From Synergistaceae bacterium (GTDB lineage: Bacteria; Synergistota; Synergistia; Synergistales; Synergistaceae): DNA of 46,965 nt. The position numbers and the translations under genes are program-made. The DNA is taken from assembly GCA_030533085.1 (NCBI GenBank), contig JAUNJZ010000020.1, positions 1 to 46,965 of the forward strand. The letters are read 5' to 3'. Below the pieces are notes generated by a model that was not told the DNA's origin, did no database searches, and saw nothing but the letters and a program-made list of their open reading frames with translations. Shown here one piece after another: positions 2,022 through 46,683 of this stretch (its first letter is position 1; every line of letters begins with the position of its first letter).

Positions 2022-2051
2022 ATATTGAACTCCTTTCAGAGACGGAAAAGA

Positions 2052-2076
2052 CCCGAGGGGAGAAATTCCCCTCAGG
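2052..2076 (-). terminator. Hairpin between dctP and dctQ (attenuator-like)
   Basis: Stem GAGGGGA (2055-2061) with TCCCCTC (2067-2073), loop of 5, extended by two further pairs outside one mismatch. On the minus strand it is followed by TCTTTTCC. Such stem-loops after the binding-protein gene often let dctP be expressed more than the membrane subunits. That role is inference here. Confidence 0.45.
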
Positions 2077-2130
2077 CTTTCCCGTTAAAGCATCATTAGC
2101 GTCAGCCGTGAATGCTTTTGTCTTGTAAAT

Positions 2131-7704: not shown

Positions 7705-7934
7705 TTTTTTGCTGAAATTTCGTGGATTTTTTTGTGGGCAGTTTTTTTATGAGGCTTTTTCACAAAGAAGCTGTGGATAATGTGTATAATTTTATAGACT
7801 GACCGGATTCTTTTCCACAGCTGAAAATTGCGTCAGAAGCGGCTGAATTGCATATTTCCACATTTTCACAGCCTCTACTACGACGATTACGGTTTTAAAT
7901 ATAAATAAGGAGTATTACTTAGGAGGGCTAACCT
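7705..7934. other. dnaA-dnaN intergenic region with DnaA boxes
   Basis: 230 bases. Two head-to-tail boxes abut: TTATCCACA (7772-7780, minus, perfect) and TTATACACA (7781-7789, minus). A near-box TTTTCCACA lies at 7811-7819 (plus). A second origin half or an autoregulatory site for dnaN is likely. It also carries the ribosome site of dnaN, AGGAGGG at 7921. Confidence 0.55.
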
Positions 7935-9098: not shown

Positions 9099-10152
9099 GC
9101 GGGTAAGATTCAATAATTTCAGAAACCTTGAGTCCCGGGAGATGAGATGGTTCCCGGGGCTTAACTTGCTGACCGGCGAAAACGGCGTCGGTAAGACGAA
9201 TATTCTCGAGGGGATAAATATCATAGCCGGCTGGGGGCCTCTCGACAGGGGGACGAAGGCGCTTTCCATTCCCACCTGGAACAGCGGCTCCTCCGAGGCG
9301 CGCCTTACAGGGGAGCTTGACGGGGATGAGATAATCCGCGTCAAAATAGCGAGCCGCTATACTATCAGACTTGACGACAAAGCCGTTACTGCCTCGGAGC
9401 TTAGATGGAAAATACCGGTCCTGACCTTTCTGCCGGGAGATATGTCCATAGTCGAGGGCTCTTCCGCCTTTCGCCGCAGACTGCTCGATATGCTTCTGGC
9501 TCTGATAGTGCCGCCTTACGCGCAGCGCCTCTCCGAGTACAGACGCGGGATACGGCAAAAGGGGCTTTTCCTCAAGAGGGGAAGTCCTCCGATAATCGCC
9601 GACCGCGCTCTGCTGCCGCTTGCCGCATGGATATGGCGTATGCGCGAGGAGGGGGTGAAGCTGCTTTCATCCTGTATGGAGTCAGTCAGCGAGCTTGCTC
9701 CCGCCGCTATCGGGCTTTCTCTTAAAAGAGGCGGCGCCGGCTTTGAGGAAAGCTGCGAGGACGATTACGCTAGGGCGCTGATTATAAACCGCGAGCGCGA
9801 AAGCGCTGTGAGATTTCCGGTTGTCGGCCCTCACCGCGACGATATAATAATAACGGCTGACGGAAGGCCCGCGGCCGAGGCGCTGAGCCGCGGTCTGAGA
9901 AGACGCGCCGCCATCGCGCTGATGCTGGCCGCCTCTGACGGCGTAAGGAGAAAAATCGGCTCCGACCCTGTTCTGCTGCTGGACGAAGTGACGGCCGAGC
10001 TTGACGTTGCCGGGCGCGAGCTGCTCTTCGACACGCTGGCTAAGAGAAATACGCAGCTCTTCGCCGCAACGGCAGAGCCATTCGCCGGAGATTTCCGCTG
10101 CACCGTTCACCGTATATCCTCCGGAAAAATAGTGGAAAGCTATGAAAAATAA
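9088..10152 (+). CDS. recF: DNA replication and repair protein RecF
   Basis: 354 aa SMC-like ATPase that loads RecA at gaps. MGFKRVRFNNFRNLES matches the usual N-terminus, so I chose ATG 9088 over the upstream TTG at 9067. Walker A is GENGVGKT (about 30-37). GPHRDD lies near 249. Walker B is LLLDEVTAELD near 299. The signature region reads LSRGLRRRAAIALML rather than the common LSQGQQR form, a mild divergence. It overlaps the end of dnaN. Confidence 0.95.
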   Translation: MGFKRVRFNNFRNLESREMRWFPGLNLLTGENGVGKTNILEGINIIAGWGPLDRGTKALSIPTWNSGSSEARLTGELDGDEIIRVKIASRYTIRLDDKAVTASELRWKIPVLTFLPGDMSIVEGSSAFRRRLLDMLLALIVPPYAQRLSEYRRGIRQKGLFLKRGSPPIIADRALLPLAAWIWRMREEGVKLLSSCMESVSELAPAAIGLSLKRGGAGFEESCEDDYARALIINRERESAVRFPVVGPHRDDIIITADGRPAAEALSRGLRRRAAIALMLAASDGVRRKIGSDPVLLLDEVTAELDVAGRELLFDTLAKRNTQLFAATAEPFAGDFRCTVHRISSGKIVESYEK

Positions 10153-10178
10153 AGAAATCAGATACGATTAAGAGAAGC

Positions 10179-29797: not shown

Positions 29798-31075
29798 TTA
29801 TTTTATTACCTTTTCCAACGCTTCAAGAATTATCTTTTTACGGTCGTTATATTCTTTGTCTCCGTCATTGTCCGGTGTCGCGAGCGGATGAGGGATCGCC
29901 GCCCCGTGTACTACTCTGTTGCTTCCGAAAGTATGGGCGATGGGGTCTATCGCCGTGATATGGGCGCATGGTATCCCCGCGCGCTCAACCTCTTTTGTGA
30001 TTGCTGCGCCGCAGCGTGTGCAGGATCCTCAGGTGGAGACCATAATTGCCGCGTCTACCCCGGCCTTTTTCAGCGATTCGGCAATCCCGCGCCCGAAAGC
30101 CTCTCCGTTAAGCAACGACGCTCCGGTGCCGACCGTGCTGTAGTAATACTCGTGCAGTCCGCCGATGATGCCCTCTTTTTCAAGATCGCGCATAACGTCC
30201 ACCGGTACGATTCGGTTGGGATCCGCGTTGGCGAAACTCGTGTCGTAGCCGCCGTGAATAGTTATAATTTTGCCAGCTTCCAGCCGTTCGCAGCCATTCA
30301 TGTGGTAACGGCCGTACTTTGTGGCTGAAGAACTCTCTATCCTGTCAGGGTTGCCGGCGGGAACGATGCCACCGGTATTAAGCAACGCGACGGTCGCCTT
30401 TGAAAGATCCCGCACGGCCGGAGCGACGGCGACTTTTTCAGGAATCTCCTGTAAATACTCGGAGACAAAGGGTTCTTTGTTTATCTTTTTCAGCAGCATC
30501 TCCACCGCGCGTTTTCCTCCGTCCTCTTCGCGGAAAAAATTCTTTCTGATGTGGCGGTGGAAATAATTTTCTTCGGCGGCGGAAGCTAATTCCTCGCCGC
30601 AGAGCAGCTTTTCCGCCAGCCGAGCCATGTCTTCAAGCGCCGGTTTTATCGCGCGTACTGAATTTCCCGTCTTGACGATATACATTTCGTCGCGGAACAT
30701 ATCGACGGCGGGGCTCTCAAAGTTCATTCCAGCTACGCCGGGTATGCCCAGCGTCTCCTTAGCCCTCCTGATGACATGGCCGCAGGCAAAACCGTATCTT
30801 CCGGCATAAAAAGAAGGGCCGGCAATGACGAGATCAGGTTTATGTTCCTTTAGCGCCTTCGTAAAGCCTTCAAGCACCTCGTCGGTATGTTCGGCGAAAT
30901 AGTTGTCGCCGCATACGCAGGTCAGCGTAATATTCGCGTGGCCGCCAAGCAGCTTTTCCAGCTGTACCCCCGGCCCCATCGCTCCAGCCACGTACTTTGG
31001 CTCAAAATCAGCCTTATCCTCGCCGCCTACTCCCGCGAAAAACTGGTTGATATAGTGAAGTATTCTGTAGCTCAT
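29798..31075 (-). CDS. grdB: GrdB-type selenoprotein, substrate-specific subunit of glycine/sarcosine/betaine reductase component B
   Basis: 425 aa when the in-frame TGA at 30031-30029 (codon 349) is read as selenocysteine. The frame stays open on both sides, from MSYRILHYINQFFAG to the TAA at 29798. The Sec lies in the motif S-T-U-G-S-C-T-R-C-G, the UxxCxxC site of GrdB/GrdF/GrdH. A hairpin, GCTGC-GGC-GCAGC, begins 16 bases after the TGA first base, a plausible bacterial SECIS. Component B attacks the amino-acid carbon and passes a carboxymethyl group to GrdA. AAGGGAGG precedes ATG 31075. Substrate (glycine, sarcosine, betaine or other) not readable. A stop-only reading would cut the protein at 348 aa. 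Confidence 0.9.
29995..30031 (-). promoter_or_regulatory. Sec codon and candidate SECIS hairpin in grdB
   Basis: TGA at 30031-30029 (minus). The stem GCTGC / GCAGC with a GGC apical loop spans 17-29 bases counted from the T of the TGA. Bacterial SECIS elements sit just after the UGA with a GGU/GGC-type loop. Folding was not computed. Confidence 0.5.
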
Positions 31076-31088
31076 CGTCCGACCTCCC

Positions 31089-32396
31089 TTAAATCCAATC
31101 CGCCGAGAGACGGCTGATTCCCGCCTGCGCGCACGAACATGGAATATGGATAAGCTCCGTGTAAAAGTAATCGGGGTTATCCGGGTCATGGTCAATCGTG
31201 GAGCGCACTATCTCCAACGAAGCTTCGTTGCCGATAAAGCTCTCCTGTGTCTTTGGTATCGCGAGAAGCTGGTGCGTATTGCCTACGCTGACCATCGCGT
31301 CACATTCCGGAACCCAGTCGGCCAGTCCCGGGCTCTTTCCTTCGCGTCCGCCCAGCTCGTCCGAGATGATAACGGTCTTAATACCGTAGTCCTCAAGCGC
31401 CTTGACGTTGAGCATTATATCTTCGTCAGGATTGCCGTGCCCTTCTGTCACAAGAATGGCGCCATCCGCTCCGAGCATTTTCGCCAGCTTTGAGGTGAAG
31501 AGGCTGGAGCGGCGCTTTCCGTCCATCGTCATAACCTCATTGTGGATGATCACTCCCAGAAAACGAAGCTTCTTTCCGTGAAGGCGGTAAAACTCTTCAA
31601 TGACCGGGCTGTTCTGAATTTCATACATATATTGCTTGTCCGAACAGACTGTGCAGTGAGCGCCGAGAAAGGTTGTGACCGCGCCGTCGATTACTTCGTT
31701 TGGATGCGCGAGCGTCGGTATCAGCGTCGCCCCGGCCAGCTGACCGTAGAGATGGAAATCTATAATCTCAGGGTTTTGACTCAGCAACTGCATGACATAG
31801 ACAACGCCCGGCAGACTCTCGTCCGCTTCGCCCAGTTCATAAGAAACGACCTCGTCGGCGTTCACATCCGCGCAGCGTTGCGCCAGATAAACGGCCAGCC
31901 GGAAAGAAGCCAGACGGCAAGCTTCGTCTGTCGAAAGAGTCTCTTTACTCAGCAGCTCCGGCTTCACATGCGCGTTAAGTACAATATTAAAGGTCTTTGA
32001 AAATGGCGTATATTCCGCGGCGGGGCCGTTCATATCCACGAGAGCGCCGGTGCGGCATCTGGCCTCTTTGTCGCCGCTCTCCGTGACCAGCACTGCGCAG
32101 CCCTTCAGCGCGAGTGTCGCGCCAGTTCCAGCCTGTTCCATCTTGCCTACGATGCCCGGAAAGATCGAGCCATGCTGAGAAAGTTTGCATCTTGGCTCGA
32201 TGGCCGCCTTTACCGGCAGGATTCTTACCTTCTCCCCGGGACGCGCAATGTGCAGGGAAAAGGATTCAACCGCGTCAAAAGTGCCGCAGGCATCTATGGC
32301 CTCCTCCCTGTTTACATAAAGCACGCCGTCTTTTACCGTGGTTTTTTCGCCCCACATCAGCCCCTTTACGTACAGCTTGTGAAGGTCAAGCTTCAC
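31089..32396 (-). CDS. grdE: GrdE-type proprotein, component B alpha/beta subunits
   Basis: 435 aa. N-terminal VKLDLHKLYVKGLMWGEKT matches GrdE. GrdE-type proproteins cut themselves before a Cys, which becomes the pyruvoyl group of the beta chain. The corresponding site is GAH-CTVCSDKQYM (Cys about 248). In known GrdE the residue before Cys is Asn; here it is His. The C-terminal half ends IHIPCSCAQAGISRL. GTG 32396 is chosen because GGAAGGGAG touches ATG 32405 but is 9 bases from the GTG, and family proteins start at this point. grdB follows 13 bases later. No grdA, grdC, grdD or thioredoxin genes lie in the window. Confidence 0.88.
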   Translation of the reverse strand: MKLDLHKLYVKGLMWGEKTTVKDGVLYVNREEAIDACGTFDAVESFSLHIARPGEKVRILPVKAAIEPRCKLSQHGSIFPGIVGKMEQAGTGATLALKGCAVLVTESGDKEARCRTGALVDMNGPAAEYTPFSKTFNIVLNAHVKPELLSKETLSTDEACRLASFRLAVYLAQRCADVNADEVVSYELGEADESLPGVVYVMQLLSQNPEIIDFHLYGQLAGATLIPTLAHPNEVIDGAVTTFLGAHCTVCSDKQYMYEIQNSPVIEEFYRLHGKKLRFLGVIIHNEVMTMDGKRRSSLFTSKLAKMLGADGAILVTEGHGNPDEDIMLNVKALEDYGIKTVIISDELGGREGKSPGLADWVPECDAMVSVGNTHQLLAIPKTQESFIGNEASLEIVRSTIDHDPDNPDYFYTELIHIPCSCAQAGISRLSADWI

Positions 32397-32405
32397 GACG
32401 ACCAT

Positions 32406-34837: not shown

Positions 34838-35497
34838 ATGATCTTAAGTAAAAAAAATGGCTCTGAAAAAAGATCGGTAGAGGCTATCAGATGTATACGA
34901 GAATGGATAGTGAATAATTATTTTAAAGAAGGAGAATTGCTTAGTGAAGTAACTTTGGCAGAAGAATTAAAAATGAGCAGGACTCCTATACGTGAAGCAA
35001 TTACATATTTATGCAACGAAGGGCTCTTGGATACAATACCGGGGCGTGGCGCAGTTGTTGCAAGAATGTCGCAGCAAGATATAGAGGAGATACTAGACCT
35101 GCGGGAGGTGCTTGAGCCGTTAGCTGCTGCAAGTGCTATAAATAGAATTCCTGACAAGGAAATCGAAAACCAGATGAAGCTATGGATACAGGCGAAAGTT
35201 GATGCAGAAAAAGGTATTGAAATATCTGCCGAAAATTTTGCAAAATGGGACACACAGTTACATGGCATGTTAAGAGACTACTGTACAAATGAGCGACTAA
35301 GGGAGTTTTTAAATATTTTAAATATACAGACAGGCATGTTTGTCATTAGATCTTGGGGGACAAAAGCTTTTATTACAGAGACAATCAATCAGCATATCGA
35401 AATTTTGAAAGGATTAAGAGATAGAGACTATAATTTTTTGAAAAGAAGCTTAGTGAACCATATTAGATCTAACATGACATATCATTTGGGTAGATAG
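34838..35497 (+). CDS. GntR-family (FadR/FCD subclass) transcriptional regulator
   Basis: 219 aa. N-terminal winged helix: GELLSEVTLAEELKMSRTPIREAITYLCNEGLLDTIPGRGAVVA (about 32-75), a classic GntR DNA-binding domain. The C-terminal FCD helical domain begins with EEILDLREVLEPLAAASAI; His142 (TQLHGML), His172-like and His205-region residues are typical metal or acid ligands in this class. FCD effectors are usually organic acids. It heads the hut/acnX block on the same strand. AT-rich codon use matches the downstream genes and not the 5' half of the window. Confidence 0.9.
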   Translation: MILSKKNGSEKRSVEAIRCIREWIVNNYFKEGELLSEVTLAEELKMSRTPIREAITYLCNEGLLDTIPGRGAVVARMSQQDIEEILDLREVLEPLAAASAINRIPDKEIENQMKLWIQAKVDAEKGIEISAENFAKWDTQLHGMLRDYCTNERLREFLNILNIQTGMFVIRSWGTKAFITETINQHIEILKGLRDRDYNFLKRSLVNHIRSNMTYHLGR

Positions 35498-35556
35498 AAA
35501 ACATATATAGTCATATGTAAGCTGCTAGTCAAAAAGAGAGTTATTTGTACATTTAT

Positions 35557-35577
35557 TATTATACAGATTGTATAATA
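35557..35577. promoter_or_regulatory. Candidate GntR operator O2 and promoter region of the acnX operon
   Basis: TATTATAC (35557-35564), spacer AGATT, GTATAATA (35570-35577). It is a perfect palindrome extended to 9-bp arms (35556-35564 / 35570-35578). The TATAAT at 35571-35576 would be the -10; TTGTAC (35545-35550) is a poor -35 with 20 bases between. Same layout as O1. Confidence 0.6.
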
Positions 35578-35598
35578 AAAAATTGGGGAGGGATATTT

Positions 35599-36813
35599 GT
35601 GTTTCTTACGGAAAAACAACAGGATATGTTAGCAGGGAAGTATGGTGAGGCTGTTGCATATTCTATGAAGATTCAGGTTGGCATGGGAAGAATATTTAAT
35701 GCGACTCGGATGGTAGTACCCGGTAGGGTGCATGTAGCGATGGGGGGTTGTATGGCAGATTATTGGTTTGCTAATAAGATGCTTAATTTAGGAGGTAAAT
35801 GCGTTATATCGCCAACCACTAACCCCAGCATGGATTTTTGCTACCTTAATAAGCATCTTGCAAAGATACCAGATGATTGGGAGGATATTGTCCGGAAAAC
35901 AAATGACGCTTATACAAAACTTGGGGCGACTATGACGCTGAGTTGTACGCCATATCTGCAGCAAAATGTTCCTGCCTTTGGCGAGATTCTTGCTTTTTCT
36001 GAATCAAGCGCAACACCATACGTTAATTCGGTATATGGGGCAAGATCCAACAGAGAATCGTCACAGAGCGCACTATGCGCGGCGATTACCGGGCTTGTTC
36101 CTGAATACGGATTATTGCTTGAAGAGAACAGAAAGGCTGAAATCCTTGTAGAGGTGCAGGCAGATTTAAATGATGATTTTGATTATCAACTCCTTGGTTG
36201 GAGTTACCCACTTAAATATAATGGGCCGGAGATTCCTGTCTTTTCAGGTATTGAAAAACGCCCTAACCCTGAAGGTTTTATGAATTTTGGCGCACAGTTG
36301 AATACGTCGGGAGCCGTTGCAATGTATCATATTGAAGGAATCACCCCGGAGGCTCCGGATCTTAAAACCGCATTAAACGGCAAAGAGCCGAAATCTCGGG
36401 TCGTCATTACGAATAAAGATTTTGACGATGTAAAGAATAAGATTTGCGGAGAGCCTGGCAAAATCGACTTCGCGCTGTTTGGATGTCCACACTGGAGTCT
36501 TAGTCAGATTGCCGACGTCTGCAAAATTTTAAACGGGAGAAAGTTTGTGGTTGATGTCTGGATTCTTACAAGCTTTATGACGAAGGAATTGGCTGCGAGA
36601 ATGGGATACCAGAAAATTATCAACGAAGCGGGCGGACATATCTTAGCTGATACCTGCGTAGATGAACCGTGCTGGTGGCCGTATTATGGTAAAACAGGAG
36701 TTTCTGATTCACCTAAATGTATGTATTACGACACAATGAGGGATATGAAATTCAAACTTAGATCACTTAAAGACTCGATTGAAGCTGCCATTGCCGGGGA
36801 GGTAAAAAGATGA
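35599..36813 (+). CDS. Aconitase X catalytic subunit (AcnX large, DUF521)
   Basis: 404 aa. Family motifs: N-terminal LTEKQQDMLAGKYGEAV, SPTTNPSMDF (about 71-80), LSCTPYLQQNVPAFGEILAFSESSA (114-138), VYGARSNRESSQSA (145-158), FGCPHWSLSQ (294-303), and ADTCVDEPCWWP (350-361). Cys116, Cys296 and Cys353 are the likely cluster ligands. Characterised AcnX enzymes dehydrate cis-3-hydroxy-L-proline, or mevalonate 5-phosphate in archaea. The context here, a LarA homolog and hut genes, suggests a different hydroxy-acid. The start is GTG, set by GGGGAGGG 6 bases upstream. The stop overlaps the small-subunit ATG by 4 bases. Confidence 0.9.
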   Translation: MFLTEKQQDMLAGKYGEAVAYSMKIQVGMGRIFNATRMVVPGRVHVAMGGCMADYWFANKMLNLGGKCVISPTTNPSMDFCYLNKHLAKIPDDWEDIVRKTNDAYTKLGATMTLSCTPYLQQNVPAFGEILAFSESSATPYVNSVYGARSNRESSQSALCAAITGLVPEYGLLLEENRKAEILVEVQADLNDDFDYQLLGWSYPLKYNGPEIPVFSGIEKRPNPEGFMNFGAQLNTSGAVAMYHIEGITPEAPDLKTALNGKEPKSRVVITNKDFDDVKNKICGEPGKIDFALFGCPHWSLSQIADVCKILNGRKFVVDVWILTSFMTKELAARMGYQKIINEAGGHILADTCVDEPCWWPYYGKTGVSDSPKCMYYDTMRDMKFKLRSLKDSIEAAIAGEVKR

Positions 36814-37226
36814 GTAAAAAAATTTACAAATGCCAACCATTGTACGAGGGAAATGCTTCAGGGAAAGCTTTAATAAGCGAAGATGCTGTTTGTTTTCATC
36901 TTGTAGACCCGCAGACAGGTTGTGTCGTGGAAAAAGGGCACAAACTTTATGGAAAACCTATGGAGGGCACTGTATTGGTTGCACATTCGGGCAAAGGGAG
37001 TTCTATTGTTCAGATGGCAGGTCTTTATGAAATAGTGTGTACTCAAAAAGCCCCGGCTGCGGTCATTGTAAGATACATAGATCCCGTGCTGGCTACAGCA
37101 TTGCTTATTATGGAAGTTCCGTCTGTGTTTGACGTGGAAGAATCGTTTTATGAAGAAATCAAGGAAGGACAAACAATCAGGCTCTCTTCAGAAAGCGGAA
37201 CTATGACGATAACGGTAGAGGATTAA
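36810..37226 (+). CDS. Aconitase X swivel subunit (AcnX small, DUF126)
   Basis: 138 aa, beta-rich swivel domain. GKGSSIVQMAGLYEIV (about 56-71) with the conserved Ser pair, then PAAVIVRYIDPVLATALLIMEVPSVFDVEE, match the DUF126 fold that closes over the active site of the large subunit. In many organisms both halves are fused; here they are split and overlap by ATGA, so a heterodimer is expected. Confidence 0.88.
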   Translation: MSKKIYKCQPLYEGNASGKALISEDAVCFHLVDPQTGCVVEKGHKLYGKPMEGTVLVAHSGKGSSIVQMAGLYEIVCTQKAPAAVIVRYIDPVLATALLIMEVPSVFDVEESFYEEIKEGQTIRLSSESGTMTITVED

Positions 37227-37241
37227 AGAGGAGTTAGGAGA

Positions 37242-38540
37242 ATGCGACTAGATATTCCTTTTGGTGAGATAAAGCATTCATTTAATCTACCGGATAAAAA
37301 TCTTCTTTTTATAGATCAGGTAGAAGACGTTAATGAAATCCAGGATCTACGGCAAGCGATCTTTGACATGCTGGATAAGCCTATTGGCACTCCTCCGTTA
37401 AGGAGTCTCACCAAGGAAAAGCAAAATATTGTTATTCTGATAGAAGACAATACAAGACATACCCCGCTTAAACAGATACTTCCTGTATTGTTGGAATATT
37501 TAGCGTATTGCAATGTTCCGGACCGGAATATTAGCTTTTTAACCGCGCCTGGTACACATCGCATTATGAGTGTTCATGAAATTATAGAAAAGGTAGGAGA
37601 AGATATATACAACCGTTTTAGAATATATCAGCATGATGTGACAAAGCCGGACGAATTGTACGATGAAGGCTATGTCGAAGCTGGTGGTTACAGAATTCCA
37701 ATTCAAGTAAATAAAAAGGCAGTAGATGCTGACTTGCTGATGGGTATCGGTGAAATAGTTCCTCATTCAGACGCCGGATATTCTGCGGGGGCTAAAATAG
37801 TTCAGCCTGGAGTTTGTGGTTATGCGACAACAGCCGCTACGCATGTCCTTGCGGCGCTTCAGGATAGATTTCCAATAGGTGTTGCTGATAACCTTTGTAG
37901 GTCAGGAATTGAAAAGGTTGCGGAAAAAGTCGGACTTTCATTTATTTTGAATATTGTTAAAAATCAACAAGGAAAAGTTTGTGGGGTTTTTGCGGGAGAT
38001 TTTATAAAAGCGCACCGTAAGGGATGTTATATGGCGGAAAAGGTTTATAGTATTCCTATTCCAATGTTGGCAGATGTTGTTGTGGTAAGTTCTTGGCCGT
38101 GTGATATCGACTACTGGCAGGCTGGGAAGGCGCTTATTGCTGCCGCAACCGCCACAAAGCCTGGAGGAATCATCATATTTGCTACGCCATGTCCCGAGAG
38201 AATAGCTCATAATCATCCAAAATTAAATCAGTGGCTGAAAATGTCCCTGGCCCAAGCAATAAACAGGGCAAAAGAAATTTCGCCGGAAAATGTTGACGCG
38301 GACCTAGTCAGTGCCGACATAGCAATAGCTAATGCTCGTGTCAGAGAAAACGCTGATGTATATGTTATTTCTGATGGATTGACCGAAGAAGATATTGATG
38401 TATTGGGCTTCAGACGTTTTTTAAGTGTTCAGGAAGCGTTAGACGAAGCATTGCGGAGGATACCGGGCGCAACGATTGGCATCTTGAGAAAAGGCGGCAT
38501 CGCGTTCCCTGTCGTGAAAACACAAAATGCTAATGTTTGA
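37242..38540 (+). CDS. LarA-family nickel-pincer racemase/epimerase
   Basis: 432 aa, DUF2088 plus C-terminal domain. Motifs follow LarA: DNTRHTP near 69, GTHR with His106, VPHSDAGYSAGAKIVQPG with His175 and Lys185, and TTAATH with His201. These equal the catalytic His108/His174 and the cofactor-linked Lys184/His200 of lactate racemase, almost at the same positions, so the active site looks intact. LarA homologs racemise or epimerise various 2-hydroxy acids. The needed cofactor genes (larB, larC, larE) are not in the window. It follows acnX by 15 bases with TTAGGAG. Confidence 0.85.
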   Translation: MRLDIPFGEIKHSFNLPDKNLLFIDQVEDVNEIQDLRQAIFDMLDKPIGTPPLRSLTKEKQNIVILIEDNTRHTPLKQILPVLLEYLAYCNVPDRNISFLTAPGTHRIMSVHEIIEKVGEDIYNRFRIYQHDVTKPDELYDEGYVEAGGYRIPIQVNKKAVDADLLMGIGEIVPHSDAGYSAGAKIVQPGVCGYATTAATHVLAALQDRFPIGVADNLCRSGIEKVAEKVGLSFILNIVKNQQGKVCGVFAGDFIKAHRKGCYMAEKVYSIPIPMLADVVVVSSWPCDIDYWQAGKALIAAATATKPGGIIIFATPCPERIAHNHPKLNQWLKMSLAQAINRAKEISPENVDADLVSADIAIANARVRENADVYVISDGLTEEDIDVLGFRRFLSVQEALDEALRRIPGATIGILRKGGIAFPVVKTQNANV

Positions 38541-38557
38541 AGAAGGAAAAGGAGTGG

Positions 38558-38656
38558 ATGCGTGGAGTAGAAAACCAGAATGTAGTTTTGAATGATGCGG
38601 GATGTTCACCAGTTCAAATGCACCAAAGGCTGTGGTATTTTAGGAGGGGTATATAG
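38558..38656 (+). CDS. Possible 32-aa leader ORF coupled to dctP
   Basis: ATG at 38558 to TAG at 38654-38656. GGAG precedes the ATG but only three or so bases away. The last base of its stop is the first base of the dctP GTG, so ribosomes could reinitiate. The peptide (starts MRGVENQNVV) has no recognised motif. It may be chance. Confidence 0.25.
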   Translation: MRGVENQNVVLNDAGCSPVQMHQRLWYFRRGI

Positions 38657-39663
38657 TGAAAAAAACAAAGAGTTTTATTTCTTGTGCTACTTTAACGTTA
38701 GCGTTAATGGTTTTGCTCTCAGCTTCGGCGATGGCAGCGGAAACGTATGTTATAAGAGTAGCAAGCATACAGCCGGAAACTCACCCGGATCTTGCTCTTA
38801 TAAAAACAGTGTTTGAACCGTACGTAGAAGAGCACTCAAATGGCAGAATTAAAGTTGAAATTTACGCAAATGCTCAAATGGGTGGGGATCGTGAATATAT
38901 TGAGGGGATTCAACTTGGTACGCTTCAATGGGCCGCTACAACAACATCCGTTTTAGGAAATTTTGAACCAGGATTTAATGTGGTCGAAATGCCATACTTG
39001 TTTACATCACGAGAAGCGGCGTTCAAAGCATTGGATGGCAAATTGGGTAAAGAGTTGGATAAACGTCTCCCTAAACTTGGCATGATAAATTTAGGGTATA
39101 TAGAGAATGGTTTCAGGCATGTTACTAACAATAAAAGGCCCATTAATTCAGCAATGGATCTCAAAGGCTTAAAAATTCGCACAATGGAAGTGCCTGCCCA
39201 TATATCATTCTTTAAAAGACTTGGCGCAAACCCGACTCCGATGAATTTTGGAGAACTATATACGGCGTTGCAGCAGGGTACTGTTGATGGACAGGAAAAC
39301 CCACTTGTTCTCATTAGTGACTGCAAATTAAATGAAGTTCAGAAATATTGTTCGCTAACGGGACATATTTTTTCAGTATGTGTAAACATGTTCAGTAAAA
39401 AATTCTACGATAGTTTGCCTGATGACCTGAAGAAGGTTATTGACGAAGCTGCGGCACGCTATGTAGCTGAACATCGCATGGCTATGGAGCGGGGAGAAAT
39501 AGAGGTCAGACAGGCGCTTGAAAAGCAGGGGATGAAAATTAATGATCTGCTTGATAAAGATAAAAAAGCCTTTGTAGAGGCTGGGGTCGCGACGCTTAAT
39601 GAGTATAGCGACAAGATAGGCAACGACATTGTAGAACTCGCTAAGAGTTATATAAATAATTAA
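38656..39663 (+). CDS. dctP: TRAP transporter substrate-binding protein (DctP family), hut-linked
   Basis: 335 aa. Signal peptide about 1-27 (ends AMAAE). The mature part shows the DctP pattern: VIRVASIQPETHPD, GRIKVEIYANAQMGGDREYIEGIQLG (about 62-87), LKGLKIRTMEVPAHI, where the Arg (about residue 170) binds the ligand carboxylate, and NFGELYTALQQGTVDGQENP. GTG start behind TAGGAGGGG. It is separated from its membrane partners (44905-46683) by four catabolic genes, so the transporter and enzymes are co-transcribed. Likely ligand: the carboxylic acid degraded by the block. Confidence 0.92.
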   Translation: MKKTKSFISCATLTLALMVLLSASAMAAETYVIRVASIQPETHPDLALIKTVFEPYVEEHSNGRIKVEIYANAQMGGDREYIEGIQLGTLQWAATTTSVLGNFEPGFNVVEMPYLFTSREAAFKALDGKLGKELDKRLPKLGMINLGYIENGFRHVTNNKRPINSAMDLKGLKIRTMEVPAHISFFKRLGANPTPMNFGELYTALQQGTVDGQENPLVLISDCKLNEVQKYCSLTGHIFSVCVNMFSKKFYDSLPDDLKKVIDEAAARYVAEHRMAMERGEIEVRQALEKQGMKINDLLDKDKKAFVEAGVATLNEYSDKIGNDIVELAKSYINN

Positions 39664-39788
39664 AATGACATCGGGGTATATGACGCATGATCTGCGATTA
39701 TGACACACGTTGCGATAGCCGTGAACTTAAGATGTAGAGATTGTTTCATATACCCGTTGTCAAATATATTTAAAGGGCGGAAGGACTT

Positions 39789-40760
39789 ATGGAGAAGTTA
39801 AATCAGGCAATAACGGGTATCTGTTCCTTTGGAAAATATCCTATATGTTTAGATATTGATAATATCAACGCAAATTTTGCGATTCTTGGAGCCCCATACG
39901 ATTCCAGCGTTGGTTTCATGCCGGGAAGCAGACTTGGGCCTCGTCGTATAAGAGAAGCGTCAACGCAATATGGCAGGGGGAACTCCGGTTTCTATAATTA
40001 CGAAACAAATGAACAGTTGCTTGAGTCGCCTGGTATTGTTGACTGTGGCGACGCTGATATTCAGGCGGGACAGCATGAGTTTTCACATAAAAACATAGAA
40101 ATGTCTGTAAGAAAAATATTGAGACGAGGTGTAATCCCTGTGATACTTGGGGGAGATCATTCCGTTACAATCGCTGTTGGCAGAGCTCTGGAAGAGCTTA
40201 AGGGCAAAGTTAGCATAGTACAATTTGACTGCCATCTTGACTTTTCTGATCACATAGGAGATTTTTACGAAAGTCCCGGGAGTCCCATGCGTAGGCTTTC
40301 TGAAATGAACCATATAGACAAAATAACACAGATAGGGATCAGAGGGATGGGGTCAAGCAAACGAACAGATTTTGATGACGCTCGCACGTACGGTACCTTG
40401 ATAACTTCAAAGGAAGTACACAGCTTAGGTGCCGTTGAAGTTGCTGCACTGATTCCTGAAAGTGAAAAGTATTACATAACTATTGATATAGACGGTTTTG
40501 ATATGTCTATAGCGCCGGGAACTTGCGCTCCATACCCAGGCGGCCTGCTTTTTGATGAGGTAATAGATATCATTTCAGAAATTTGTAAAAAAGGAGACAT
40601 TGTGGGGTTTGACCTTGTTGAGGTTGCACCGCAAATTGACCCGTCGGGTATTACAGCAAGGCTTGGCGCCTTGGTTGTTATTAACACTATAGCCCAGATA
40701 CTTAAATATAAAAGAATTCGTTTGCAGTCGTCTGGAGGTTATTCCTATGGAGAACGTTAA
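39789..40760 (+). CDS. hutG: Arginase-superfamily hydrolase, formiminoglutamase-like (copy 1)
   Basis: 323 aa. All metal ligands of the ureohydrolase fold are present: His124 in GGDHS, Asp147-Cys-His149-Leu-Asp151, and Asp233/Asp235 in IDIDGFD, followed by APGTCAPYPGG. Within a hut cluster the expected role is hydrolysis of N-formiminoglutamate to glutamate and formamide. The ureohydrolase family also includes agmatinase and guanidino-acid hydrolases, so the substrate is an inference. It overlaps copy 2 by 14 bases and shares most of its sequence with it, for example PRRIREASTQYGRG. Confidence 0.82.
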   Translation: MEKLNQAITGICSFGKYPICLDIDNINANFAILGAPYDSSVGFMPGSRLGPRRIREASTQYGRGNSGFYNYETNEQLLESPGIVDCGDADIQAGQHEFSHKNIEMSVRKILRRGVIPVILGGDHSVTIAVGRALEELKGKVSIVQFDCHLDFSDHIGDFYESPGSPMRRLSEMNHIDKITQIGIRGMGSSKRTDFDDARTYGTLITSKEVHSLGAVEVAALIPESEKYYITIDIDGFDMSIAPGTCAPYPGGLLFDEVIDIISEICKKGDIVGFDLVEVAPQIDPSGITARLGALVVINTIAQILKYKRIRLQSSGGYSYGER

Positions 40761-41721
40761 TCAGGCTATTACAGGAATTTGTACATTCGGAAAATATCCA
40801 ATATGTACAGACTTGGATAATCTTGATGCCAATTTTGCGGTTATCGGTGTACCATTTGATTCGAATGTGGCGTTTATCCCGGGAAGCAGGCTCGCGCCGC
40901 GACGTATAAGGGAAGCGTCAACGCAATATGGCAGGGGAGAACTTGGTTTCTATAATTACGAAACGGACGAGCAGTTACTTGAATCTCCTAAAATTGTTGA
41001 TTGCGGAGATGTTGATATTTTATCAGGCCAACATAAATATTCATTTACCAGAGTTGAATCTGCCGTGAGAAAGATAATTCAAAAGCATGCCGTCCCTGTT
41101 GTTTTAGGCGGAGATCACTCTATAACGATACCATATGGCTTTGCTCTGTCAGAGATCCATGAAAAGGTAGATATTGTTCAGATTGGCGCTCATTTAGACT
41201 GGACAGATCACGCAGGTTCATTTTATGAGAGTCCCGGTAGCGCAATGCGTAGGCTTTCTGAAATGGATCATATTGGTCATATAACACAAATTGGCATACG
41301 CGGTATGGGATCTAGTTGTAAAAAAGATTTTTATGATGCTATGGCCTATGGTACGGCCTTGATAAGCGCTAAAAGTATTCATAAATTGGAAAGAGAAAAG
41401 GTTCTTGAGAAAATCCCAAATGCAAAAAAATATTGCATGGTTATAGACATAGACGGTTTTGATATTTCAATTGCACCAGGTACAAGCGCGCCTTATCCTG
41501 GCGGAATATCGTTTGATGAGTATGTGGATATAATTATCGGGCTATGCCAAAAGGGCAACGTGGTCGGTATTTGTTTGACAGAGGTAAATCCTCAGTATGA
41601 CCCTAGCGGAATCACTTCTCGTTTGGCGGCGCTGGTATTAATAAACTCAATCGCTCAAATCATAAAATATGAATGTGTGGCTACATTGCAAGAGCAGTCA
41701 GGGGCGAAGGCAAATGGATAA
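40747..41721 (+). CDS. Arginase-superfamily hydrolase, formiminoglutamase-like (copy 2, altered metal site)
   Basis: 324 aa paralog of copy 1 with colinear motifs. GGDHS (His124) and DIDGFD are kept, but the second motif reads Gly147-Ala-His-Leu-Asp: the first Asp, a bridging manganese ligand in arginases, is replaced by Gly. Either one metal site is lost or it acts as a partner of copy 1. Its ATG lies inside the 3' end of copy 1, which argues for tight stoichiometric co-synthesis. It overlaps hutI by 8 bases. Confidence 0.8.
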   Translation: MENVNQAITGICTFGKYPICTDLDNLDANFAVIGVPFDSNVAFIPGSRLAPRRIREASTQYGRGELGFYNYETDEQLLESPKIVDCGDVDILSGQHKYSFTRVESAVRKIIQKHAVPVVLGGDHSITIPYGFALSEIHEKVDIVQIGAHLDWTDHAGSFYESPGSAMRRLSEMDHIGHITQIGIRGMGSSCKKDFYDAMAYGTALISAKSIHKLEREKVLEKIPNAKKYCMVIDIDGFDISIAPGTSAPYPGGISFDEYVDIIIGLCQKGNVVGICLTEVNPQYDPSGITSRLAALVLINSIAQIIKYECVATLQEQSGAKANG

Positions 41722-42961
41722 TGTAAAGCTCTTTAAATCTGCTAGAATTTTTACCCCTATAGATAGAGGGAAACCGGTTTGTCAAAAGGATTTATCAAAA
41801 ATATCTGTTTTTGAAAATGGAGCGATCTTGGTAAAGAACGGATATATTGAGGCAATAGGCCATTATGATGATGTTATGAAGTCGCCAGCCGCTTCCAATA
41901 TTCAACGCGAGATAAATTGTTCCGGACAATGTGTAATACCGGGGTTTGTAGACCCTCATACGCATGCAAGTTTTATCGGGCTTCGTGAAGAAGAATTTGC
42001 AATGAGGCTTAATCATGCCTCTTATCTTGAAATACATAAAATGGGAGGCGGTATCAAAAACACCGTTCAAAAAGTTAGAAACTCACCAGAAGATGAGCTG
42101 TGTGAGAGTACTGCAAAAAGAGTTTTAAACGCTCTAAAAAGCGGAACCACAACTATGGAGATAAAAAGTGGCTATGGGCTCGCAACGGAACATGAAATAA
42201 AACTTCTCAAGGTAATAAACAAAGTAGGAAAGATTACGCCGCTTGATATAATTCCTACATTTCTTGGGGCTCATGCGGTACCGGAAGAATATAGTAATAG
42301 AGAAAATGACTACGTTGATCTGGTTATCAATGAGATGATACCTTCTATTGCATCGAAAAAACTCGCGCAGTTTTGTGATGTTGCTTGCGATGAAGGCTTT
42401 TTCTCTGTAGAAAATAGTAAAAAAATTCTGACGGCAGCAAGAAAATCAGGTATGGGACTTAAATTACATGGGGACGAACTTGGTGATTTCGGTGCTGCGA
42501 AATTAGCTGCTGAGCTTAAAGTTGATTCTGTCGAACATTTGTTGGCAACTAACGACGAAGGCCTTAGGTCTCTTGCTAATGCAAACGTTTTAGCTGTCCT
42601 TTTGCCAGCGACGGCATTTAGCCTTGGAGTCAGTTATGCGCGAGCAAGAAAAATGATTTCAGAAGGGGTTCCTGTTGCGCTTGCTACAGACTGTAACCCA
42701 GGGTCATGTTATTGCGAATCTATGGCATTTGTGTTTATGCTTGCTGTGCTGGGAATGGGGATGTCTGTAAACGAAGCGCTTAATGCGGCAACGCTGAATT
42801 CTGCCTATGCGATAAAAATGAACAAAAAAGTTGGTAGTTTGGATAAAAACAAACAAGCGGACTTTTTATTATTGGATGGGGAAAGCCCTACTGTAATTCC
42901 CTATCATCTTGGAGGTTCTGTTATCAAAAGCGTTTATAAATTAGGTGAAAAGGTATCATAA
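41714..42961 (+). CDS. hutI: Imidazolonepropionase
   Basis: 415 aa metal-dependent amidohydrolase. PGFVDPHTHASF is the first metal site. MEIKSGYGL, PTFLGAHAVPEEY, LKLHGDELGD, SVEHLL and ATDCNPGSC are the HutI hallmarks in order. It opens the ring of 4-imidazolone-5-propionate to N-formiminoglutamate in histidine degradation. ATG 41714 (GGGGCGAAGG upstream) gives the usual N-terminus; an upstream ATG at 41669 lies within copy 2 of the hydrolase. Best-conserved member of the hut part, so the ring-opening reaction is probably retained. Confidence 0.92.
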   Translation: MDNVKLFKSARIFTPIDRGKPVCQKDLSKISVFENGAILVKNGYIEAIGHYDDVMKSPAASNIQREINCSGQCVIPGFVDPHTHASFIGLREEEFAMRLNHASYLEIHKMGGGIKNTVQKVRNSPEDELCESTAKRVLNALKSGTTTMEIKSGYGLATEHEIKLLKVINKVGKITPLDIIPTFLGAHAVPEEYSNRENDYVDLVINEMIPSIASKKLAQFCDVACDEGFFSVENSKKILTAARKSGMGLKLHGDELGDFGAAKLAAELKVDSVEHLLATNDEGLRSLANANVLAVLLPATAFSLGVSYARARKMISEGVPVALATDCNPGSCYCESMAFVFMLAVLGMGMSVNEALNAATLNSAYAIKMNKKVGSLDKNKQADFLLLDGESPTVIPYHLGGSVIKSVYKLGEKVS

Positions 42962-43034
42962 ATCATAGTGGCACACGTATTCTTGCTAAAAATTTTGCAG
43001 CAATATATAAAATAAAATATAGGAGGCAGTGCAA

Positions 43035-44747
43035 ATGTCAGGAAAAGCAGAGATTCTTCACAACGTGAAAGCACAGACAGGGAATGTTCTCAGATGTAAG
43101 GGCTGGAGACAAGAGACTCTTCTCCGTATGCTGGAGAATAATATGTTCAATGCGGAGCATCAAGAACGTCTGATTATTTATGCAGGTAATGGTAAGTGTG
43201 CGCGTAACTGGGAATCATATCACGCAACCGTGAAGGCTCTTAAAGAGCTGGAAGATGATGAAACGCTGTTGATGCAGTCAGGAATGCCTGTTGCTGTATT
43301 CAAGACGCACAAATATGCCCCATCGGTAGTTATGGCAAATACAAACATTCTCAGAGCCGATTGGCCGACATTCTATGATCTTGAAGCCAAGAACCTTACG
43401 ATGTTTGGCGCTTATACCGCAGGCCCATGGGAATACATTGGAACACAGGGGATCATGCATGGCGGATACGAAACATTGAATGCCGTTGCAATAAAACATT
43501 ATAACGGTTCTCTGAAGAACAGAATATTCCTTACGGCTGGCGCCGGTGGAATGGGAGGAAGCCAGAGCTGGGCAATGAAGATGCATGGCGGCGTTGCCAT
43601 TATTGTTGATGTCGACAGAAAGATCCTTGAAAAACGCGTAAAGCTAGATTATATGGATATCGTTGTTGAAACAATGGACGAAGCAATTTCAATAGCGAAA
43701 GAGTGCGTAGCAAAAAGCGAACCTTTGGCAATAGGAGTCGTAGGTAATGCTGCGGATTGTTTTGAGGAGGCGTACGAGAAAGGGTTCATGCCGGATGTCA
43801 TGAGTGAAATGTGCCCAGATCATGATCCCCTTTTCTATGTTCCATCAGGATACACACCAGAGGCTGCTGCAGAACTTCGCGCAAGAGACCAGAAAGAGTA
43901 TATGGACAAAGCATGGGAGACAATGAAACGTCAGCTTACGATTATGTTGAAATATCTGGATAAAGGAGTCCCCACGTTTGAGTACGGAACAAAATTGCGC
44001 AAAGAATGTAGAGATGCTGGGTATCCTGAATCGGAGGCAATGCGTCTTCCCGCTTTTGTGGCCGATTATATTCGCCCGCTCTTCTGCGAAGGCCGCGGCC
44101 CGTTCCGTTGGGAATGTATTTCTGGCGACCCTGCGGATCTGTCGCGCACAGATGAAATTGCACTTGAGCTCTTTAAAGACGACCCTATTGTAACCCGTTG
44201 GATTAAATTGGCACACGAACATCTCCCCATTGAAGGGCTCCCGGCACGTGTGTGTTATATGGGGTTTGGCGAAAGAAAGGCGTTTGCTCTTGCTGTTAAT
44301 CAGGCGATTAAGAAGGGAGAAATAAAAGGGCCTGTGGCCTTTTCGAGAGATAACCTCGATAGCGGTTCCATAGTTAACCCAACAGATGAATCTGAACGCA
44401 TGAAAGATGGCGGCGATCTTATTTCTGACTGGGTCATGTTAAACGGCCTTATCAACGCAAGCAGTATGTGCGACCTTATCTGTATTAACGCTAACTCCGC
44501 GATGGCGGAAGCCGTTCATACAGGAGTAACACAAATTGCAGACGGTACGGATGAGGCTGATTTCCGCTTAGAAGCGGCAATGACAGTTGATTCCGGAATG
44601 GGGATTGTTCGTCATGCTCAGGCAGGATATGAGACGGCAATAGAAGTTGCGATGGGAAATGGCAAGTTTACAAAAGATAGCATAAAGATTCCGCTTCTTT
44701 GGCAACCGGCGGACAAAGTTACGTTTGGCCCTGAAGAAAACGAATAA
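43035..44747 (+). CDS. hutU: Urocanate hydratase family protein, divergent
   Basis: 570 aa, typical urocanase length. Kept motifs: ARNWESYHATVKALKELEDDETLLMQSG, the NAD-binding AGAGGMGG (169-176), TFEYG, GRGPFRW, ARVCYMGFGER with Cys407, DNLDSGS (439-445), and DGTDEADFR. Lost: the HHGGGVGMG-type loop after SDW, replaced by INANSAMAEAVHTGV (484-498), and the QTSAHDP motif, which reads EMCPDHDP (258-265). Urocanase adds water to urocanate using NAD+ as electrophile. The changed loops may mean another substrate such as a substituted urocanate. AGGAGG 8 bases before ATG 43035 fixes the start. Confidence 0.82.
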   Translation: MSGKAEILHNVKAQTGNVLRCKGWRQETLLRMLENNMFNAEHQERLIIYAGNGKCARNWESYHATVKALKELEDDETLLMQSGMPVAVFKTHKYAPSVVMANTNILRADWPTFYDLEAKNLTMFGAYTAGPWEYIGTQGIMHGGYETLNAVAIKHYNGSLKNRIFLTAGAGGMGGSQSWAMKMHGGVAIIVDVDRKILEKRVKLDYMDIVVETMDEAISIAKECVAKSEPLAIGVVGNAADCFEEAYEKGFMPDVMSEMCPDHDPLFYVPSGYTPEAAAELRARDQKEYMDKAWETMKRQLTIMLKYLDKGVPTFEYGTKLRKECRDAGYPESEAMRLPAFVADYIRPLFCEGRGPFRWECISGDPADLSRTDEIALELFKDDPIVTRWIKLAHEHLPIEGLPARVCYMGFGERKAFALAVNQAIKKGEIKGPVAFSRDNLDSGSIVNPTDESERMKDGGDLISDWVMLNGLINASSMCDLICINANSAMAEAVHTGVTQIADGTDEADFRLEAAMTVDSGMGIVRHAQAGYETAIEVAMGNGKFTKDSIKIPLLWQPADKVTFGPEENE

Positions 44748-44904
44748 TGCTATGTAGTGTCATCTGAGATGGAAAAATTGGGGCTGAGTTTAATTTTCTT
44801 AGCTTTACTCCGCCCTAATTTAGTAAAAGCCATTGGTGGAGCTTGTTTTGGGCAAAAAGCGCGGAAATATCTAATCTGAAAGAATTGCAGAGGAGGCGAA
44901 ACGA
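44748..44904. other. Gap between urocanase and dctQ
   Basis: 157 bases. AAATTGGGG and CCCTAATTT form an imperfect stem (about 44775-44822), possibly reducing expression downstream. No T-run. No coding frame seen. AGGAGG at 44891 serves dctQ. Confidence 0.35.
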
Positions 44905-45408
44905 GTGAAAGTTGTAGCGAGAAAATCATGGAAAATCAAGGAAAAATTTGAAGAATATTTCCTTGTAGGAACATTGTTTTTTAATGTGGTAATAATATTC
45001 CTTCAAGTAGTTATGAGGTATTGCTTTTCGAATTCCTTGACGTGGACCGAAGAGCTTGCCAGATATGTATTCATTTGGCAAGCTTGGATAGGGGCCAGCT
45101 ACGGAGTAAAAAAAATGGGGCATATCCGTGTTGAAGTGTTGGCGGAAAAATTCAAAGGAAAAAATAGAATCTTGTTTGACATTTTAATATATGCCATATG
45201 GCTGGTTTTCATGTGTTTTCTTGCATACACAGGTACGCAGTTGACGCTATATGTTGCTAGCACGGGGCAACTATCGCCTGCAAACCAGATACCTATGGAA
45301 TATGTTGACGTATCGGTTGTTGTTGGAAGCGCGTTAATGATATGGCATTTGTTGAAGAATATTGCCAGTATGATAAAACAATACAAGAAGTATGAATTGG
45401 AGGTGTAA
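44905..45408 (+). CDS. dctQ: TRAP transporter small permease subunit (DctQ family), hut-linked
   Basis: 167 aa with four hydrophobic helices. The SLTWTEELARYVFIWQAWIGASYGVKKMGHIRVEVL segment (about 45-80) is the DctQ signature region with charged residues at the helix start. GTG start with AGGAGG 8 bases upstream. Followed by dctM after three bases. Functions with the binding protein at 38656. Confidence 0.9.
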   Translation: MKVVARKSWKIKEKFEEYFLVGTLFFNVVIIFLQVVMRYCFSNSLTWTEELARYVFIWQAWIGASYGVKKMGHIRVEVLAEKFKGKNRILFDILIYAIWLVFMCFLAYTGTQLTLYVASTGQLSPANQIPMEYVDVSVVVGSALMIWHLLKNIASMIKQYKKYELEV

Positions 45409-45411
45409 TAA

Positions 45412-46683
45412 ATGTCGGCGCTTTTATTATTTGGACTGCTGATGCTCTTTATTTCTTTAAGCGTACCTATTGGTATTACAATTGGCATAGCAACTGCAAT
45501 ATCATTGGTGATGATGACAGATATTACGCCTATGCTGATCGCACAAAAAGCTATTTCAGGTCTGGATTCATTTCCTCTCCTCGCGATACCGTTTTTCATG
45601 CTGGAAGGAGCGCTGATGCTTGAAGGCGGTATATCAAAAAGACTTGTTGCTTTTGCAGAAAGCCTTGTCGGTACGGTCAAGGGAGGCCTGGGGATGGTTA
45701 CAGTCATCGCCTGTATGTTTTTCGCTGCAATATCAGGTTCTGGCCCGGCCACTGTATCTGCTATTGGTTCCTTTATGATTCCTGCAATGGAGAAAAGAAA
45801 ATATGATGTTGGATTTGCTTCTGCTTTAACAGCGTGCGCGGGAAGCATTGGCGTCATAATTCCGCCTAGTATCCCTTTTGTCTTATATGGTGTCGTTGCG
45901 CAGGTATCAATAGGCGATATGTTTATCGCTGGGTTTTTGCCCGGAGTGTTGATCGGCTTAGCTATGATGATCGTTGTTTACTATGTAGCTTGTAAGAACG
46001 GATATGAAGGGCTTTCAGAGAGACCGCCTCTATGGAGTTCTTTTAAAGAAGCCATTTGGGCGATTCTGGTCCCTGTAATAATTCTTGGCGGCATCTATGG
46101 AGGTATCTTTACCCCAACAGAAGCTGCTGTCGTTGGGGTCGTTTACTCATTGATTGTTGGTAAATTTATATACAAGGAGCTCACATTAAAAAAAATATAC
46201 GCATGTTTTGTTGATAGCTCGTTGGTTAATGGCGTTACCATGTTTATGGTGGGACTTTCGATTGCATTTGGGATTTACTTATCATTGGCACAAATTCCAG
46301 TTACCGTTGCAAATGGCCTGAAAGCTATTTCGGATAATGCTATAGTTACATTGATTATCATTAACATTTTTCTGCTAATAGTTGGCTGTTTTGTCGATAA
46401 TATTGCATCAGTTATCATTCTTACGCCGATCTTGCTTCCAATTGTTAAATCATTTGGAATCGACCCGATCCATTTTGGCGTGTTTATGACTGTAAACCTT
46501 GCAATCGGATTTGTCTCTCCGCCATATGGTATTAATCTTTTCGTGGCTTCTGCCATTTCAAAAGTAAAAATGGAAACAATTTGTAAGAATTTAGGCTGGT
46601 TGTTTTTAAGCATGATAGCATGCTTGATTATAATAACATATGTCCCCATGGTATCATTAGGGCTCTTACAATTGTTAAGATAA
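45412..46683 (+). CDS. dctM: TRAP transporter large permease subunit (DctM family), hut-linked
   Basis: 423 aa, mostly hydrophobic. It begins MSALLLFGLLMLFISLSVPIGITIG and carries the DctM motifs VKGGLGMVTVIACMFFAAISGSGPATVSAIGS, IPPSIPFVLYG, GGIYGGIFTPTEAAVVG and, near the C-terminus, IGFVSPPYGINLFVAS. Last gene of the AT-rich operon. No clear terminator immediately follows within 100 bases. Confidence 0.93.
   Translation: MSALLLFGLLMLFISLSVPIGITIGIATAISLVMMTDITPMLIAQKAISGLDSFPLLAIPFFMLEGALMLEGGISKRLVAFAESLVGTVKGGLGMVTVIACMFFAAISGSGPATVSAIGSFMIPAMEKRKYDVGFASALTACAGSIGVIIPPSIPFVLYGVVAQVSIGDMFIAGFLPGVLIGLAMMIVVYYVACKNGYEGLSERPPLWSSFKEAIWAILVPVIILGGIYGGIFTPTEAAVVGVVYSLIVGKFIYKELTLKKIYACFVDSSLVNGVTMFMVGLSIAFGIYLSLAQIPVTVANGLKAISDNAIVTLIIINIFLLIVGCFVDNIASVIILTPILLPIVKSFGIDPIHFGVFMTVNLAIGFVSPPYGINLFVASAISKVKMETICKNLGWLFLSMIACLIIITYVPMVSLGLLQLLR

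Follow-up and report, generated by a model that had tools for sequence, protein, structure and literature searches.

Contig JAUNJZ010000020.1 of a Synergistaceae bacterium (assembly GCA_030533085.1) ends in an operon that brings together genes for an aconitase X (AcnX), a LarA-type racemase and a tripartite ATP-independent periplasmic (TRAP) transporter with genes of the lower histidine utilization (hut) pathway. The window analysed here is this entire contig (C28), 46,965 nucleotides of a draft genome of 2.63 Mb that is 95.5% complete. Histidine breakdown is taught as beginning with an ammonia-lyase, and no histidine ammonia-lyase (HutH) gene lies on the operon's contig. Our subject is the entry into the pathway that AcnX and LarA may provide in its place.

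The operon and its proposed route

The operon spans positions 34838-46683 and consists of eleven co-directional genes, several of which overlap by a few bases. Ten of these had been listed in an initial annotation of the sequence; all ten are present in the order and on the strand it gave, their frames are intact, and profile hidden Markov models back the family of each. The GntR/FCD regulator that precedes them also belongs to the unit. From 5' to 3' the genes are:

34838..35497, + strand, GntR/FCD family regulator (Pfam GntR and FCD); an ortholog (37-50%) precedes AcnX in genomes G187, G017, G018 and at other loci
35599..36813, + strand, AcnX large subunit, AcnX-L (PF04412, 378 bits), with a GTG start
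36810..37226, + strand, AcnX small (swivel) subunit, AcnX-S (PF01989, 75 bits); its catalytic Ser aligns with Ser62 of TkAcnX-S
37242..38540, + strand, LarA-type nickel-pincer 2-hydroxyacid racemase/epimerase (Lar_N, 169 bits)
38656..39663, + strand, DctP, TRAP solute-binding protein (PF03480, 289 bits); closest solved relatives 4pdd and 4nq8
39789..40760, + strand, ureohydrolase 1 (arginase family, 233 bits), with all metal ligands (DCHLD, DIDGFD)
40747..41721, + strand, ureohydrolase 2 (arginase family, 213 bits), with the first metal-ligand Asp changed to Gly (GAHLD)
41714..42961, + strand, HutI-type imidazolonepropionase (TIGR01224, 441.6-441.8 bits, cut-off 298)
43029..44747, + strand, short urocanase-family hydratase of the HutU2 subfamily, a diverged copy (hutU model TIGR01228, 610 bits, cut-off 375)
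44905..45408, + strand, DctQ, TRAP small permease (YiaM-like model, 50.8 bits)
45412..46683, + strand, DctM, TRAP large permease (PF06808, 387 bits)

The GTG start of AcnX-L at 35599 has a good ribosome-binding site, GGGGAGGGA, ahead of it, and for hutI a start at 41714 is more likely than one at 41669. The contig ends 282 bases past dctM, so that the downstream context of the operon lies beyond it; these 282 bases hold a hairpin, GAGGGCACAAA...TTTGTGCCCTC. An Rfam scan of the window gave no match.

In the route that we propose, the TRAP transporter would import a hydroxy acid bearing an imidazole-type ring, LarA would interconvert its C2 epimers, AcnX would turn the proper epimer, by dehydration, into an acrylate of the urocanate type, which HutU2, HutI and the two ureohydrolases would carry to glutamate and a C1-N fragment. 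We infer each reaction and its direction, the substrate, the transport specificity, the chemistry of AcnX and the part played by the two ureohydrolases from gene content and sequence. The operon would then give the lower histidine pathway a second entry, free of ammonia-lyase, that stands beside the hutH route and is fed by an imidazole-type hydroxy acid, a reading to which we assign a probability of roughly 0.58. Comparative genomics supports the idea of an AcnX-LarA entry into the lower pathway well, and the family's substrate is most likely imidazolelactate.

A complete canonical hut set elsewhere in the host

Searches of the host genome with PF00221 and PF01175 found two ammonia-lyase genes, on contigs C15 and C66, and a second, long urocanase on C15. 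Contig C15 (locus L181) carries a complete canonical hut set of HutI, FtcD-N, HutH, long HutU and FtcD-C, the HutI being 54% identical to that of the window. With this set present, the operon is a second lower histidine pathway and not the host's sole one. The initial annotation had cast the operon as the pathway's ammonia-lyase-free route, which as written does not hold for a host with its own hutH and full hut cluster. Its remark that hutH is missing is true of the operon and the contig, but two HutH-family genes lie on other contigs and this contig stops shortly after dctM. The HutH-family gene on C66 (L002/L182) has the 4-methylidene-imidazole-5-one (MIO) motif ACG in place of ASG and is flanked by an alanine-racemase-like gene and one for a LysR-like regulator.

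Recurrence of the linkage in four phyla

HutU2 occurs in 15 Synergistota genomes of four families, as a rule beside HutH, HutI, FtcD-C and FtcD-N, frequently with formate-tetrahydrofolate ligase as well. AcnX lies in the HutU2 neighbourhood in the window and in G187, G017, G018, G170 and G163; in G138 and G169 it is no more than about 20 kb away, and in G179 and G005 it stands beside a long canonical urocanase, not HutU2. Conservation of hutH in relatives that mostly lack AcnX and LarA had been named in advance as a finding that would speak against a link, and half of that pattern is seen, with hutH adjacent to HutU2 in 12 of the 15 genomes and AcnX within about 20 kb in eight.

When 84,980 species genomes were scanned with the AcnX alignment, 25 loci emerged, 22 of them outside the Synergistota set already known. 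Nine of these 22 have hut genes within 10 kb (binomial tail 2e-10, assuming that 2% of positions are near hut), namely those from a member of the Desulfobacterales, Desulforhopalus singaporensis, two Lachnospiraceae, Butyrivibrio, two Clostridia, Terrilactibacillus and a member of the Acidimicrobiaceae. The first two of these loci carry FtcD, HutU2, HutI, TRAP, AcnX and LarA genes together. The neighbourhood search suggested in the initial annotation thus finds the linkage in four phyla (Synergistota, Thermodesulfobacteriota, Bacillota and Actinomycetota), with both urocanase types and on different AcnX branches, and in some loci a D-2-hydroxyacid dehydrogenase replaces LarA. Overall, a 2-hydroxyacid enzyme (LarA, LarAH2 or D-2-hydroxyacid dehydrogenase) accompanies AcnX in about 13 of the 16 loci that are linked to hut, and at most other AcnX loci too. 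HutF-like amidohydrolase genes occur in L144, L145 and L147, and HutD-like genes in L144 and L145.

One transcript could instead serve two functions, LarA-AcnX-TRAP handling an unrelated hydroxy acid while HutU2, HutI and the ureohydrolases degrade urocanate that is imported or made by HutH. This would suit the host's possession of HutH on other contigs, the frequent adjacency of hutH and HutU2, and the many genomes in which LarA-AcnX-TRAP stands alone; it sits badly with linkage across four phyla, AcnX branches and urocanase types, and with the divergence of both AcnX and HutU2 of the window from their relatives, and we hold it to be quite unlikely. As judged from gene neighbourhoods, the link of AcnX-LarA to hut is strong but not obligatory, since the module is also found without hut.

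Ammonia-lyase was sought genome-wide with PF00221 in 11 hut-linked AcnX genomes, and four gave no match (G005, Butyrivibrio G197, Lachnospiraceae G198 and Clostridia G201), all of which have a urocanase. By comparison, a HutH match is missing in 7 of 113 other urocanase-bearing Synergistota (Fisher p 0.008). We regard these genomes as support, not proof, for an entry free of ammonia-lyase; together with the recurrence in four phyla, they sustain the original suggestion of such an entry at the level of urocanate. They also bear on a route through a 2,3-dihydroxy acid of the imidazole-glycerate type, in which LarA would epimerise C2, AcnX would yield imidazolepyruvate, and transamination to histidine would feed HutH. 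That scheme agrees with the chemistry of both LarA and AcnX, and genes for an IlvD-type dehydratase, an aminotransferase or a 2-oxoacid oxidoreductase flank some AcnX modules; yet the operon has neither aminotransferase nor hutH, and the scheme needs HutH, which these four genomes lack; we consider it very unlikely.

Three further observations concern the relatives. Acidaminobacter and other Bacillota have loci (L131, L132, L134, L135, L137, L138 and L142) in which two different AcnX pairs lie close together, along with TRAP genes and a LarA-type racemase. In L110 and L111 (G128 and G137) AcnX is beside MIO ammonia-lyase paralogs that are 31-32% identical to HutH. In the relatives' HutH, Asp replaces His83; a special substrate for this HutH was considered and dropped, because the same clade is also found beside canonical long HutU.

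AcnX and LarA active sites

The AcnX pair of the window has the large and swivel subunits with the catalytic Ser, Glu and Lys and the Fe-S Cys that mark the family: in alignments AcnX-L retains the Glu-Ser-Ser triplet (135-137), three Fe-S Cys (116, 296 and 353) and the Lys/Tyr pair. In solved AcnX enzymes, active-site residues hold a substrate whose C1 is the carboxylate, whose C2 gives up the proton and whose C3 bears the hydroxyl that leaves (PMC8184944). Where Asp203 contacts the amine of hydroxyproline, the window has Ala, as does the mevalonate 5-phosphate enzyme. Type I AcnX (cis-3-hydroxyproline dehydratase) is a fused protein with Asp203 and Trp35; the window AcnX has two separate subunits, and hydroxyproline dehydratase was rejected as its function on that Ala and on a score of 211.7 bits against a cut-off of 700.

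The initial annotation had cautioned that characterised AcnX enzymes remove a beta-hydroxyl, and the caution was apt: because the active site is of the 3-hydroxy-acid dehydratase type, a 3-hydroxy acid is a live alternative. AcnX would then remove the 3-hydroxyl of 3-hydroxy-3-(imidazolyl)propionate or a close analogue to give the urocanate-type acrylate, and LarA would act on another compound or be a passenger. The retained catalytic residues and the Ala shared with mevalonate 5-phosphate dehydratase are what this predicts, but the strict 2-hydroxyacid enzymes that accompany AcnX almost everywhere are not, and we know of no abundant natural source of such an acid; we judge it unlikely. Constant LarA or D-2-hydroxyacid dehydrogenase partners of AcnX favour a 2-hydroxy acid, and in hut-linked loci imidazolelactate.

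The closest AcnX relatives of the window are in Synergistaceae metagenome-assembled genomes. In the AcnX tree the window falls in a 16-member clade (support 100/99) and has the longest branch of its immediate group, and hut-linked members are scattered over several places. AcnX-L carries 26 private substitutions, against 0-7 in each of 12 clade members, and in its side-chain loop GGCMAD takes the place of the SAQDAD or SNQ[DE]AD found in relatives.

LarA of the window has what defines its superfamily: a Lar_N domain, the two catalytic His, which are retained with the catalytic Arg, Gln and Lys, and biosynthesis genes for the nickel-pincer (NPN) cofactor in the genome. The larE and larB genes and the N-terminal part of larC are together on C41 (L172), and the C-terminal part of the split larC is on C23 (L173), so the cofactor is probably made in the host. 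The best NCBIfam model is LarAH6, and the malate racemase models LarAH6 and LarAH5 score 282 and 222 bits against cut-offs of 500 and 462. By published rules for pocket residues (PMC11770544) the pocket reads S-D-D-I, with Ser-Asp after the second catalytic His and, at the T359 position, Ile in place of the malate-type Lys. Malate or another dicarboxylate is disfavoured as the LarA-AcnX substrate, that Lys being missing, and this absence, together with the Asp of the pocket, counts in favour of the proposed route. The Ser-Asp motif (once Cys-Asp) is common to stand-alone LarA-AcnX-TRAP modules, and since hut-free modules share it, it is no mark of imidazole. For DctP, the ligands of the closest solved relatives are probably D-erythronate and pantoate, both of them 2-hydroxy acids.

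Neighbours of AcnX in other genomes bear on its product. In G005 an enoate-reductase-type protein stands between urocanase and the neighbouring LarA and AcnX, and a fumarate-reductase-type flavoprotein is beside AcnX in G098; such reductases are expected if AcnX makes an enoate. Elsewhere (L045, L046, L048 and L049, in part L047 and L050) a conserved cluster holds D-2-hydroxyacid dehydrogenase, IorA/IorB-like, ADP-forming acyl-CoA synthetase, AcnX and second LarA (Lar_N) genes, several with a branched-chain-type ABC transporter; it probably serves aryl-lactate fermentation. A tentative, and on balance doubtful, extension is that AcnX, with LarA or D-2-hydroxyacid dehydrogenase, would be a CoA- and radical-free aryl-lactate dehydratase that takes the 2-hydroxyl off imidazolelactate and, in the oxidoreductase-linked clusters, off other aryl-lactates, a general anaerobe route to acrylates, with a shift to a ring-modified imidazole hydroxy acid in this host.

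A diverged hydratase and tandem ureohydrolases

The unit has two of the enzymes that characterize a hut operon, an imidazolonepropionase and a urocanase-family hydratase with altered NAD and active-site motifs. HutU2 of the window is 74-79% identical to 14 relatives and differs at 51 positions where 12 compared relatives agree, against 0-7 for each relative. The private changes include QYTA to AYTA, MCPC to MCPD, PTF to PTD and YGG to YAG, in motifs that we take, from general knowledge of urocanases, to concern NAD or substrate. HutU2 relatives already lack the HHGGG motif and a canonical Arg, whose change to Ala is the single difference between the aligned stretches of 8q9v and 8q9u. Pure neofunctionalisation as the cause of the private substitutions is weakened by their modest enrichment in motifs (14/62 vs 37/337, p 0.014) and by the host's canonical HutU, itself somewhat diverged with 18 private changes, where nine relatives have 0-3 and distant G005 has 89. 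A thiourocanate (ergothioneine) pathway was also set aside: HutU2 scores 625 as S-methyl thiourocanate hydratase (cut-off 880) and 568 as thiourocanate hydratase (cut-off 930), and its relatives sit with FtcD, suiting an unsubstituted formimino group.

The two ureohydrolases, 65% identical to each other, stand in the place of FtcD, which the operon lacks. They had been called hutG-like; the ureohydrolase family is right, but they score 134.5 and 121.9 with the hutG model (cut-off 229), agmatinase models score higher, and they are not clearly HutG, lying nearer agmatinase and guanidinobutyrase than formimidoylglutamase. For ureohydrolase 1 the agmatinase model gives 167 (cut-off 174), and agmatinase 1wog is the closest solved structure. 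The neighbours of the nearest ureohydrolases (G109-G114, G043, G122 and G187) yielded no clue to the substrate. Ureohydrolase, formiminotransferase-like and TRAP genes occur together in L174 (G122:C2) and L178 (G187:C26), clusters that possibly take up a formimidoyl or guanidino amino acid.

The substrate of the window operon may be a ring-modified imidazole hydroxy acid. This would jointly explain why AcnX and HutU2 have private changes and why two ureohydrolases stand where FtcD is expected, although relaxed or lineage-wide evolution could explain them too.

Weighing the proposed entry

Several findings weigh against an ammonia-lyase-free entry fed by an imidazole-type hydroxy acid. A hutH gene and a full hut set are already present in the host. 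In many genomes LarA-AcnX-TRAP stands by itself with no hut genes, and LarA there has the same motif, so that neither LarA nor AcnX is visibly imidazole-specific. AcnX of the window conserves the C1-carboxylate, C2-H and C3-OH residues of the solved 3-hydroxy-acid dehydratases, and to our knowledge removal of a 2-hydroxyl beside the carboxylate has no precedent in AcnX and would be new chemistry. The tie of AcnX to indolepyruvate-oxidoreductase-like genes fits aryl-lactates in general. The lyase-free genomes are drafts (G005 is 82% complete), which can miss genes.

If the proposed entry is real, a conserved LarA-AcnX module would be a second door into histidine breakdown, and the heterodimeric AcnX proteins that are widespread in bacteria, like an orphan LarA group, would gain a testable function. 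It would also bear on which organisms of guts, rumens and digesters consume or make imidazolelactate, urocanate and imidazole propionate. Literature searches for an imidazolelactate racemase or dehydratase or a thiourocanate hydratase gave nothing relevant, and none of the best 15 of 101 papers in a further search pairs an AcnX term with urocanate or histidine ammonia-lyase.

Other features of the contig

Outside the operon, the genes at 29800-31195 (-) and 31089-32405 (-) encode a glycine/sarcosine/betaine reductase component B subunit precursor and GrdB, the latter reading through an in-frame TGA (STUGSCTRCG) as a selenocysteine codon. A row of dnaA, dnaN, a recF-like gene and mnmG/gidA at 6370-12071 (+) makes it likely that the contig includes the replication origin region. 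A separate second TRAP transporter (DctP, DctQ and DctM) lies at the opposite contig end, at 112-3132 (-).

Comparison with known systems

Like the hut pathway (HutH-HutU-HutI-HutG/FtcD), the operon has a HutU-family protein, HutI and a putative ureohydrolase-family last step together, and would yield glutamate; unlike it, the operon has AcnX, LarA and TRAP genes in place of HutH, a divergent HutU, and, with no FtcD, tandem ureohydrolases that are not clearly HutG. With characterised AcnX enzymes it shares the fold family, the catalytic residues and the two-subunit organisation of type II, but its side-chain loop has no equivalent of Asp203 and it is set among LarA and hut genes rather than those for hydroxyproline or isoprenoids. 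LarA has its best model match, its catalytic residues and the larE, larB and larC genes of its genome in common with the malate racemase group LarAH6 (PMC7583248, PMC11770544), yet it is below the cut-off, lacks the Lys for malate's second carboxylate and has Ser-Asp after its second catalytic His. HutU2 scores about as well with the NCBIfam models of S-methyl thiourocanate and thiourocanate hydratases (8q9v and 7ned) as with hutU, but far below their cut-offs, and it retains the Cys of RICWLGYGER that both lack.

The ureohydrolase pair has a parallel in the nickel-dependent metformin hydrolase, an alpha2beta4 enzyme of catalytic and non-catalytic subunits whose beta subunits are inactive (PMC11399263). 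Both systems have tandem ureohydrolase genes of which one is complete and the other has a broken metal site (DCHLD, GAHLD), whereas the pair of the window has no hypA or hypB beside it and, at its 65% identity, is apparently a separate duplication.

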